Shown piece by piece: positions 12,311 through 16,136 of a DNA stretch of 64,000 bases. Both the position numbers and the translations under genes were made by a program. Within the stretch, counting starts at the first letter, position 1; each line of letters opens with the position of its first letter. The stretch comes from Anas platyrhynchos (Eukaryota; Chordata; Aves; Anseriformes; Anatidae), in the NCBI RefSeq assembly GCF_047663525.1, contig NC_092602.1, positions 2,115,501 to 2,179,500 on the forward strand, written 5' to 3'. The notes beneath the pieces were generated by a model. The model was not told the DNA's origin. It saw only the letters and a program-made list of their open reading frames with translations, and made no database searches.

Positions 12311-15300
12311 GGCACGCGGCGCGGCCGCCCCGAGCGCTCCCCCCCCCGGGTCCCGGTGGCTCCAGCCCAGCCCCGGCCGTGGGTTTCGCACCGAGGGGAC
12401 GTCCCCGGGGAGCTGCAGCCTCCGAGGCTCGGGCTGGGACCCCGCTCGCTGCAGGATGAGGGGGCGAGAGGCGTAAAGGCAGCTGCAGGCTCCTGGAGTC
12501 CTCCTTCAGAGCCCAGCGCCTGGGGGAGGTCGGGTTTCATCCTGTGGCTCCAGCAGGCGCAGCTCAGGTTGCAAAGGCTCCCCTGCAGCCACACGGTCTC
12601 GGTGCTGAGCAGCCAGCGCAGCTGTCCCAGGGCCCTCCTGCAGCTCCCCTCGTTCCCCTGGCAGCTGAATAGGGCTGTGAGAGTGTGCCCGTGCTGGGGG
12701 AGCCAGCACCAGGCATTGTCACACACATCAGTGCAGGGACACTGCCACATCCCACTGTCCCCAGCAGAGTGTTTCCAACCAGAGCGAAACGGGCAGAGGA
12801 CACCGAAGAGTTGAACTTTTTAATCTGGTGGATTCCAAGAATTACATCCAGCACTTGAATTAATACCAGAGAACATGAAAAGAGCCCAGGAATTAGCACA
12901 GTCACAAGCCCCCTGTCCTCCCTGCTGCTGGTCCGTGTGGAGCACTGGAAGCCCCCACTGGTCTACGTCACCCCTGATCCTCAGGGAAACCCAGAGAGAT
13001 CCACCACAGCCCTGGAGCCATTGAGTCCTCCCCATTCCTCCCAGTTCCAGGGCCTCCCCAGAAGCCAGAGTCCTCCAGGAGTTCCCCACCACTGGAGCCT
13101 CAGCACCCACGGGGTGCTGGAGATGTGCTGAAGGAGAGAGGCTCTGCTCCATCTTCATTCCCAAACCCAGCACTCGCACCCCTGGCCCTGCTCTCCCCAC
13201 TGCAAGGCTCCGTGCCTGCAGCCTCATGACCAAGGGATGGAATTTGCCCCACAGCTATTGAGCCCAATGGCAATAAAGGCACTGAGCCAGATAACAGAAA
13301 TGCCTCTGAAATTCAAAAGCTCACAGGCTGCAGATAACACGACCCCTCCCACGCCAGAGGGGCCGGTTTGGTCTCACATCCAAGGCTCCCCAGCTCTGTT
13401 TTGGAGCATGCTGTCCTGCGGGGCACACGGGACCTTTGGCCAGATGTGGGACTTTCAGCTGGACGTGGGGCTCGGGCCTGGGCTGGGGTCTGCACAGCTG
13501 CGATGTTCTGCTCCTGAGACCTGTGTGAGAGTGAAATCCACGCCCATGCAGGGCAAGGAAGGGGCTGCAGAACCAGGGAAGCACGGCAGCAAATGCCCCA
13601 GCTCCTTCCAAATGCCCTATCCTCGTTGGGGATCCCAGAGCAAACAGGACAAACCACCCCTTAGGCTCTTTGGCCCTAGGCTGTGTGACATTCCTGCTGT
13701 GGTCTTCTTGTCCCCAAAAGGCTGGTGTCCCCCTGCTGCTTTATCTGGGCCACAGGAGGATCAGCTGAGAGGTGTACGTGCCTGCTCACCTGGCTAGCCT
13801 GATCCACGGCCTGCCCAGTCAGCATCGGAGACACGGCTCTGGCTCTGGCACTCTGCCTGCTGGAAGGGGACGAGACACATTACATCCTTCTCCGTCCTCC
13901 CCTGGCTCTTCCCCAGCCGTGACAGTGCAGCCACAGGCCGGCTGTTTCGGCCACACACACTCATGTTTGCTCAGAGAGAGGCTGAGCTTTGCTGTGCTCC
14001 CCTCGAGAAGCTCTCCCCGGGGAACTGGGAGCATGGGCAGCCTCTGGGACCTGAGCGTTCCCGTGCAGGGCATGGCAGGATCAGCCCAGGCACTGCTGTG
14101 TTCAGCTGAATTTCATCTCGCAGGGACAAACCCTGCCCCGCAGTGCCAGCTGGCCCTTTCCCTTGGCCCTTGCCCAGCCTGGGAGTGCTCTGACAGCCCT
14201 TGGCCAGGCCTGCTCAGCTGTTTAAGGCCCCACTGCTGTTATCTTTTCTCTGCAGGCAGCAGCACCCCACCCCTGGCCTCCTCCCCCAGCCTTTAAAATG
14301 TCCTTCCACAGCTGACACAGGGCAAGGGTGATGTCAAGGGAAAAAGCAGTGGGATGGACAGGGAGAGGGCAGAGATGAGAGGGATGGGGGGGGCTCCACC
14401 ACAAGCCCAGGGCATGGAGGAGGGACAGAGCAGCAGCCCTGGGGCTTGAAGACCTGGGAACTCTCCCCCAGGTGTGAAGATGAGTGTCTGGAGGAAGGGT
14501 GAGGAGATGTGCTCCTCTCAGCACTTCCAAACTGCCTGCAGCCTGTTTCCTCTCCTCCGTCTTCTCGGGGATTAGCTGCTAAGCACCCTGACACGCTGGT
14601 TTTTGCTGCGTGAGCACAAGGAAACATTTCTGAAAGGCTCAGCAGCAGACGGATTGTGTTTTTTTGGCAGTTACAAGGCAGTTAAGTAACCCACTCGCAT
14701 TCGATAATGTCACCGGAGTATGCTAAGAGCCCAATCTGGGCAGCAACTCGAGGAGAGCGATGTTTGCTTTCATGACACGCTCTGGGAATGATTACTTACG
14801 ACACCACTCCCAGCAAATCTGTTTGGACCATGAGCCAGCCCAGAGCCACAGGCACACTGAGCAACCCTGCGTCCATCAGCAGCACTGGGAAGTGGCAGCA
14901 CAGAGAAATCAGTTAGCAGAGCCCGGGCAGGGGACCCAGGTGTCCTCGTACCTGTTTTTGGCCTGTCCTGCCTTGCACTGGCAGAAAGAAGAGATGTGTC
15001 GTTAAAATTCTATCCTCTGGGACTTGATGGTACCCTCTCACTGACCCCAAACATGACCTGGTGAGTCATTTTGGTAGCTGCTTTCTGCCTCCTCACCACC
15101 ACACCAGAAAGAACCAAGATCCTTCTGTTCTGAGGACTCAGGGCTGCAGCAGCACCCGCTACGTTTGGGAGAGCTCAGGGCCAAAGTGCAAGCAGCATCC
15201 CAGAGCCTGCTCTGCCTGATCACACACTTATCTCCGAGCAGGGATAAGTTGTTTGCTGACAGGGAGCCTGCAGGGACAGCCCCTGCTGGGAGAGCAGGCT

Positions 15301-15556
15301 AAGAGAACAAAAACGAGGAAATGTGGAGCATGCCAGCAGCTCCCTGCCCTACCCAAGGGTCATCCCCAGCCAGTGCACCAGGAGGAACTGTTACAAAGAG
15401 CATTAACTCGGTGTTAAGTCAGCCTTTCCCACTCAGAGACAGCCCTGCCAGGGGAAGGGAGTGAACAAGCAGTGGGCTGGCAGCACAGGAATGAGAAGTC
15501 CCAATTTCTGGGCCTCCATCAGCATTGGTGGCAGTGCTTTTGGGGGAGCAGCCCCA
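12311..15556. other. Interval between ALDH2 promoter and the last confident ACAD10 exon
   Basis: In human the ACAD10 acyl-CoA dehydrogenase exons would lie here, downstream of the APH module and before ALDH2. Reading the minus strand in three frames I find none of the strong family signatures (F-A-M-T-E-P, K-W-W-I-T-G, R-L-G-P-G-R, A-D-G-P-D-E-V-H). One weak exon-like match is listed separately at 13790-13859. An exon-like minus-strand segment at 14800-14884 has good borders (acceptor CTTCCCAG, donor GTAAGT) but no recognisable product. A minus-strand ATTAAA occurs at about 12818-12823. The rest holds nothing I can name. Confidence 0.5.
13790..13859 (-). pseudogene. Possible relic of an ACAD-domain exon
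   Basis: A 70-nt minus-strand segment with acceptor CCTTCCAG and donor GTGAGC. One frame reads A-V-S-P-M-L-T-G-Q-A-V-D-Q-A-S-Q, which can be laid over human ACAD10 [16 protein letters not shown] with V, P, D, A and Q kept and the exon ending at the same Gln. The segment before it is about four to six residues shorter than human. The match is short and could be chance. If real, it indicates decay of the dehydrogenase module. Confidence 0.25.
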
Positions 15557-15562
15557 TTTATT
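15557..15562 (-). terminator. ACAD10: Candidate early polyadenylation signal for ACAD10
   Basis: Minus-strand AATAAA about 65 bases past the stop codon that is reached when exon 12 is read through its GT donor. It offers a natural end for a transcript carrying only the HAD and APH modules. Confidence 0.45.
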
Positions 15563-15627
15563 GCAGCTGGCCTGGCAAAAACCTGCTCATCTGGGAAGGG
15601 AGTGCCAGCTTCTGCAACTGCTGTTTC

Positions 15628-16136
15628 CTAGGATATGAACTCCGTACTAAGCAATTTCTCCAAGCCACAGGACTCTGAGCGCCAAGTGTCTGATGTGATT
15701 AGGAATGCAAAGGCTCTTAGAGGCATGCCACGACCCTTGTGTAAGGGAGCAAAGCTGCTGTAGGAAGGAAGATGCCTCACCTTTAGGTCTAGAAGAGGTC
15801 GCAGAGTCCACCTGAGCTGGGAAATCAGCAAACTCCACTGGACTTCCAAGATCCTTTCCAGCTTGTAGTAAAGACCCTGGGCCATCCCCAAGAGGCCACT
15901 GAGGGAAGTGATGGGGGGGACCTGGAGCACGGAGGCAGCCCCAGGACACGGCCAGGTGCCACAGCTCCTGCTGAGGAACGGCCCCTGCCTGGCCCAGGTG
16001 CTGTAACGCCGTGCAGAAGGCTTTGCAGCAGGGAGGCTCTCGAACACACGGAATCCTTCTTTGATGGCAAAGTCCCAGGCCAGGTCTGCCACGAACTCTG
16101 CGTGCTCTGGGCGGCTTTCACCTGGGGCTGGCCTCC
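15628..16136 (-). CDS. ACAD10: ACAD10 exon 12: end of APH module, possible terminal exon
   Basis: Starts G-R-P-A-P-G, then [20 protein letters not shown], and Y-S-T-W-A-R, all matching human ACAD10. Further on, [11 protein letters not shown] resembles human E-L-Y-H-R-L-K-H-F-M-E at the start of the dehydrogenase module, and then similarity stops. A GTGAGG donor lies at 15780. If it is not used the frame runs 50 more codons to a stop at 15628-15630. Confidence 0.7.

Follow-up and report, generated by a model that had tools for sequence, protein, structure and literature searches.

Loss in place of the acyl-CoA dehydrogenase module of ACAD10 in Anas platyrhynchos, with a probable HAD-pseudokinase as remainder

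ACAD10 is a mammalian mitochondrial enzyme of 4-hydroxy fatty acid metabolism in which a HAD-like domain, an APH-type kinase domain and an acyl-CoA dehydrogenase (ACAD) domain are joined in one precursor. In a stretch of 64,000 nucleotides from Anas platyrhynchos (NC_092602.1, positions 2,115,501 to 2,179,500; hereafter the window), the gene has lost its ACAD module, as a preliminary description of this DNA had proposed. This loss is confirmed, and there is very little chance that an artefact explains it. The window gives no significant match to the module, which elsewhere in the genome was found only at the paralogue ACAD11. It is likely, on the sequence evidence gathered here, that the module was lost in place, that the remainder is a retained HAD-pseudokinase and that ACAD11 is the remaining enzyme of this type. 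Beyond the module loss, what is new is that the kinase, as judged from its sequence, has lost near-invariant residues.

The retained gene consists of 12 minus-strand exons between 23991 and 15781 (Table 1). All 11 introns are of the GT-AG type and the spliced frame comprises 682 codons with 0 stops, in agreement with the earlier account of 12 exons in phase ending with exon 12 at 16136-15781. When the frame is read through the exon 12 donor, it runs on for another 50 codons before a stop whose last base is 15628, which would give a protein of 732 residues, and AATAAA follows at 15562, about 65 bases further; both had been described. One AATAAA is seen in the 3,771-base interval searched beyond exon 12, and since 0.23 is already expected there from base composition, this motif alone is weak evidence of a 3′ end. 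Compared with Pfam, the 732-residue protein matches APH (PF01636, 6.1e-45) and Hydrolase (PF00702, 2.7e-15), along with four further rows for weaker HAD- or kinase-type families, and with E values up to 1 it matches no ACAD family. It also matches TIGR02247 with 182.3 bits (cut-off 125.4). The features that define an ACAD10 are thus found for the N-terminal HAD-like domain and the APH-type kinase domain, while the C-terminal ACAD10/11-type ACAD domain is represented by one decayed exon only. Searched against the whole genome (a 1.26-Gb assembly of 42 contigs), the bird protein gives 15 rows, namely 12 in the window, which are ACAD10 itself, and 3 at ACAD11; ACAD10 is therefore single copy in this assembly.

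The human ACAD10 query was a reconstructed sequence that begins at exon 2, exon 1 being absent from it. Its ACAD part matches the structure of human ACAD11 (2wbi, 447 bits) and a bacterial ACAD (4hr3, 428 bits), and is for this reason sound enough for the purpose. A tblastn search of the window with this query recovered exons 2-12 (11/11 of those queried, E 1e-5 to 1.8e-19); the residues after ‘...EDLK’ gave no significant match in the 64 kb, the best one lying at 13849-13745 with E 0.20. A hidden Markov model (HMM) of four ACAD10/11-type ACADs, run on both strands of the interval, reached at most 8.0 bits; the top value in 100 shuffles was 12.2 bits, with a median of 0.1 and 1/100 above 8.0. 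The possibility of ACAD exons on the plus strand, or in another part of the window, was likewise rejected, nothing significant being found by tblastn in the window or by the HMM on both strands of the interval. The earlier statement that no strong ACAD signatures lie past exon 12 stands as far as significant tblastn or HMM matches are concerned, but a decayed penultimate ACAD exon had been missed. The ACAD should be the easiest part to detect, because in human ACAD10 this domain is 62% identical to that of bacterial LvaC and the kinase 29% identical to LvaA (PMC11342911).

In the genome-wide search for the ACAD domain, in which the best candidates only were scored (19/19), the domain of human ACAD10 gave 12 rows with E up to 1. 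Eight of them fall at C2:114565107-114583183, and the other 4/12 have E above 0.6. This locus, where matches span C2:114557642 to C2:114583183, shows pieces of a kinase (among them DWELST) and of an ACAD (among them ADGPDEV); identity to mouse ACAD11 is 56-86% over the 11 ACAD pieces (piecewise matches, unspliced). On the strength of this combination and identity, the locus is, by sequence, ACAD11. A relocated ACAD module was accordingly rejected: among the candidates scored genome-wide, ACAD10/11-type ACAD exons are found only at ACAD11, on another contig.

What lies at 13852-13742 is the penultimate ACAD exon in decayed form, which argues that the module was once present at this locus and decayed in place. 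ACAD11 from this genome supplied the exon boundaries for whole-segment scoring; its penultimate ACAD exon has 37 codons, the last one split. In an ungapped scan of the minus strand of the interval, the remnant scores 39.5 and is the one outlier among 11 segments; as controls, the best of 115,679 window positions scores 14.25 and 0/300 shuffles reach 39.5. Four single queries all peak at the same base, with scores of 53 for human ACAD10, 38 for 4hr3, 34 for bird ACAD11 and 33 for mouse ACAD11 (null maxima over 188,459 positions: 26, 25, 21 and 22, respectively), and a query set without the reconstructed human sequence gives 35.0 (null 14.3). A gapped scan points to the same place, at a score reached by 0/200 shuffles and 0/29 real chunks. 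The remnant is preceded directly before its first codon by AG, at the ACAD11 exon boundary, has lost the GT donor and is identical to human ACAD10 at 12/37 residues. The possibility that the 13849-13745 match is due to chance was rejected, since whole-exon scoring with the ACAD11 boundaries made the signal clear.

The other 10/11 ACAD segments left no such trace, since between 16 and 284 of 300 shuffles match or exceed their scores in the ungapped scan and between 9 and 199 of 200 in the gapped one. A remnant of the last ACAD exon was considered and discarded, as its best places differ between scans (13486; ending near 14734) and the second is in the wrong order. For the exon preceding the penultimate one, a suggestive candidate (14466..14582) lies in the correct order, with the core LEVLRGAHLLTL facing human LLVLRAAHLMDL (8/12 residues) and a tblastn row at 14530-14495 (18.1 bits). 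With the human query alone, its gapped score is reached by 9/200 shuffles and 0/29 real chunks; once ACAD11 is added, the best place moves and 88/200 shuffles reach the score. As separate observations on the penultimate remnant, its acceptor at 13852 and the exon 12 donor share the same phase, which would let a transcript use the remnant as a short alternative last exon, and it contains a donor-like site, CAG/gtgagc (13792-13784, minus strand).

The HAD and APH modules had been called intact, which holds for the open reading frame but not for the core residues of the kinase. The HAD domain keeps its first aspartate (D40 in the bird), and its motif FLDDLGTN (human ACAD10) has become FLDSSSQS within the exon at 21574-21732. 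The kinase keeps the catalytic aspartate of HGD (HGDFR, bird 453-457) and the following Asn. The aspartate of the DWE motif binds metal in the APH/kinase fold. In the bird this motif reads GWK (D475G, E477K), SN of the nucleotide loop reads AA (S288A, N289A), and R412Q affects the position aligned with R176 of ACAD11. Thus, among the features of a 4-hydroxyacyl-CoA kinase, the HGD aspartate is present, whereas the DWE aspartate (G475) and the CoA-contacting Arg (Q412) are not. In human ACAD10 the HAD domain shows negligible phosphatase activity and appears regulatory (PMC11342911), and in ACAD11 R176 contacts CoA in molecular dynamics modelling, with D220 as the catalytic aspartate (PMC12440821). 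Mouse ACAD11 and two bacterial kinases have 64 invariant positions in common, of which 63 are kept in human ACAD10 and 50 in the bird protein. Given the loss of the ACAD module and of key active-site residues of the kinase, the product is probably a non-catalytic protein.

Conservation ends within exon 12. From the start of exon 2 to EFV of exon 12, 294/523 aligned residues are identical between bird and human ACAD10, and for exons 2-11 the sum of rows gives 291/509. After EFV, identity is 24/37 up to WAR of the linker and 21/69 beyond (Fisher p 3.6e-5, before versus after WAR), although low identity beyond WAR is expected anyway because the human linker is disordered. The part of ACAD helix A encoded in exon 12 is identical at 13/36 residues, with 9 gap columns, as compared with 30/45 between bird and mouse ACAD11. 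The exon 12 donor (after DLK) coincides with the ACAD11 intron after ...ERLK (LK/E). The human ACAD10 precursor is cut in the linker between kinase and ACAD, at S617 and S637, and the study of this cleavage also tested arginines 603, 616, 623 and 634 (PMC11342911); the bird has Arg at 4/4 positions aligned with R603, R616, R623 and R634. Together with the drop past WAR, these arginines suggest that the conserved part ends about where the mature mammalian HAD-kinase ends. Since cleavage in mammals separates the kinase from the ACAD, the retained part would correspond to an existing mature protein, and the bird protein may be cut at the same linker arginines.

Whether such a frame could stay open by chance was approached by simulating a neutral 682-codon frame (kappa 4, uniform rates, no indels; 200 runs per distance). 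Frames free of stops amount to 9/200 at 0.05 substitutions per site, 1/200 at 0.1 and 0/200 from 0.15 upward. A fall of the remnant to 12/37 from 60-80% human identity corresponds to ~0.4 to 0.6 substitutions per site, with a wide error. Because the remnant needs such a distance and open neutral frames are gone from 0.15, the HAD-APH frame was probably held by selection long after the ACAD exon could drift, in this one genome. The simulation informs on rough divergence only, and dating of the loss from it was dropped.

According to the reading that we favour, the ACAD module of a single-copy ACAD10 decayed and was deleted where it stood, and neither a move elsewhere nor an omission by the assembly would account for its absence. 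The remainder would be a HAD-like domain and an APH-type domain that, at the sequence level, has lost residues for handling nucleotide and CoA. The protein would still be made and enter mitochondria, would be processed at the conserved arginines of the linker, like mammalian ACAD10, and would persist as a non-catalytic HAD-pseudokinase, the breakdown of 4-hydroxy fatty acids in the bird then resting on the paralogue ACAD11.

Several points weigh against this reading. The human ACAD10 sequence used throughout was reconstructed rather than taken from a record. For the remnant, the ACAD11-derived boundaries were applied after the 13849-13745 match had been noticed, ordinary tblastn is not significant there (25.8 bits, reached by 4/200 shuffles), nor is the HMM (8.0 bits, 1/100 shuffles higher), just 1/11 ACAD segments scanned left a clear remnant, and this exon is itself an open frame. 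The simulation used a single transition bias (kappa 4), kept rates uniform and left out indels. For the kinase, HGD and Asn are still present, and when mouse ACAD11 is held out, human ACAD10 and the two bacterial kinases share 78 invariant positions, of which mouse ACAD11 keeps 63 and the bird 62. An active paralogue thus departs as often as the bird protein, so that the count alone shows no inactivation; by sequence, the case for a pseudokinase rests on which residues changed, not on how many, the bird, unlike mouse ACAD11, having changed at SN in the nucleotide loop, at the Arg equivalent to R176 and at both acidic residues of DWE. The same kinase changes could equally mean that the gene is in early decay. 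In this main rival, which we judge unlikely, the whole of ACAD10 would be a unitary pseudogene, with the ACAD module gone and the HAD-APH frame open from recent decay only. The 14/64 kinase invariants not kept and the change to FLDSSSQS in the HAD motif fit relaxed constraint, but neutral loss of about one-fifth of the residues takes 0.1-0.15 substitutions per site, where 1/200 and 0/200 simulated frames are open, and the gene has canonical splice sites, 682 codons without a stop and exons 2-11 that still show the above identity to human.

It is improbable that the remainder is a working two-module enzyme, with an active kinase that hands 4-phospho-acyl-CoA to another enzyme. The DWE aspartate is Gly, in addition to the E to K, R to Q and nucleotide-loop changes; the sole other ACAD10/11-type ACAD found in the genome sits in ACAD11, and in mammals ACAD11 is peroxisomal and ACAD10 mitochondrial (PMC11342911); furthermore, three conventional ACADs are inactive on 4-phosphohexanoyl-CoA (PMC12440821). 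The idea draws on the retention of HGD and the following Asn, on the ability of the N-terminal part of human ACAD10 alone to phosphorylate the substrate (PMC11342911) and on the acceptance of the free intermediate by ACAD10/11 (PMC12440821). Hardly any weight can be given to an assembly error in which ACAD exons were deleted or collapsed, even though the interval carries tandem arrays at its ALDH2 end and an older build of the zebra finch genome had the ACAD10-ALDH2 region misassembled (PMC9516828). The window contains no N, the helix A part within exon 12 is itself degraded when set beside ACAD11, no ACAD10-type exons were found elsewhere in the 42 contigs and a decayed ACAD exon lies in place downstream of exon 12 on the expected strand, which makes an artefact very unlikely.

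Compared with known systems, the bird gene shares with mammalian ACAD10 the adjacency to ALDH2, the HAD and APH domains, the linker arginines and an exon 12 that reaches into ACAD helix A, and differs from it by the missing ACAD domain and the changed DWE, R176-equivalent and nucleotide-loop residues. Its predicted product has the same extent as the mature N-terminal fragment of mammalian ACAD10, an HAD and kinase ending in the linker (PMC11342911), but the mammalian precursor also supplies the ACAD half and its kinase is active, whereas the bird gene encodes no ACAD half and has changes at kinase residues. The paralogue ACAD11 of this genome has the same APH and ACAD parts and an intron at the place of the exon 12 donor; unlike bird ACAD10, it has kept the DWE motif and the ACAD exons (matched piecewise) and has no HAD domain. 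As in pseudokinases and unitary pseudogenes in general, fold and frame are kept and catalytic residues lost.

Table 1. Exons, domains and remnants of the ACAD10 gene in the window
Feature	Position	Strand	Basis or remark
ACAD10 exons 1-4	23991-23829, 23294-23146, 22365-22171, 21732-21574	minus	splice sites, phases, open frame
ACAD10 exons 5-8	20986-20827, 20388-20247, 19897-19829, 19236-19055	minus	splice sites, phases, open frame
ACAD10 exons 9-12	18513-18363, 17550-17405, 16902-16729, 16136-15781	minus	splice sites, phases, open frame
Exons 1-5: N-terminal leader and HAD-like domain	20827..23991	minus	frame, Pfam, alignment
Exons 6-11: APH-type kinase domain	16729..20388	minus	alignment, invariant-residue comparison
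Exon 12: kinase end, linker, degraded start of ACAD helix A	15781..16136	minus	
50-codon read-through and stop, if exon 12 donor unused	15628..15780	minus	no Pfam match
AATAAA, possible poly(A) signal	15557..15562	minus	65 bases beyond read-through stop
Weak candidate remnant of exon preceding penultimate ACAD exon	14466..14582 (approximate bounds)	minus	not established, suggestive only
Decayed remnant of penultimate ACAD exon	13742..13852	minus	whole-exon scoring, single-query and gapped scans

ACAD10 had been placed immediately before ALDH2, and the joined first exons of the next minus-strand gene indeed match Aldedh (4.1e-12); this neighbour is taken to be ALDH2 and the divergent gene on the other side to be BRAP. 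The human gene order places ACAD10 by ALDH2 (PMC12898128). A tandem array of ~10-bp units (24123-24748) is situated between exon 1 of ACAD10 and the GC-rich beginning of the divergent neighbour, and it may affect the ACAD10 promoter. Two minisatellites are found at the other end, one just upstream of the ALDH2-like gene (12101-12272, 43-bp unit, 4 copies) and one just inside it (11605-11817, 38-bp unit, 5.5 copies). Rfam gave 0 matches on the 64-kb window.

Recent work identified ACAD10 and ACAD11 as the enzymes by which mammals channel 4-hydroxy fatty acids into beta-oxidation (PMC11342911, PMC12440821), and ACAD10 protein has been reported from alligator hearts, so that the gene is expressed in a crocodilian (PMC6565670). 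Searches of open-licence literature on bird ACAD10 returned no paper whose title or abstract start describes its loss. For a whole bird lineage, it is a tentative and rather doubtful proposal that ACAD10 has become a HAD-pseudokinase, conserved and expressed, that plays a new non-catalytic role, and that the mitochondrial 4-hydroxy branch has been ceded to ACAD11; an allosteric function has already been proposed for the HAD domain of human ACAD10 (PMC11342911). A vertebrate without the ACAD10 dehydrogenase, and probably without its kinase, would amount to a natural knockout, in which the mitochondrial branch should be lost, ACAD11 should be relied upon and the HAD-kinase half may have a non-catalytic role.

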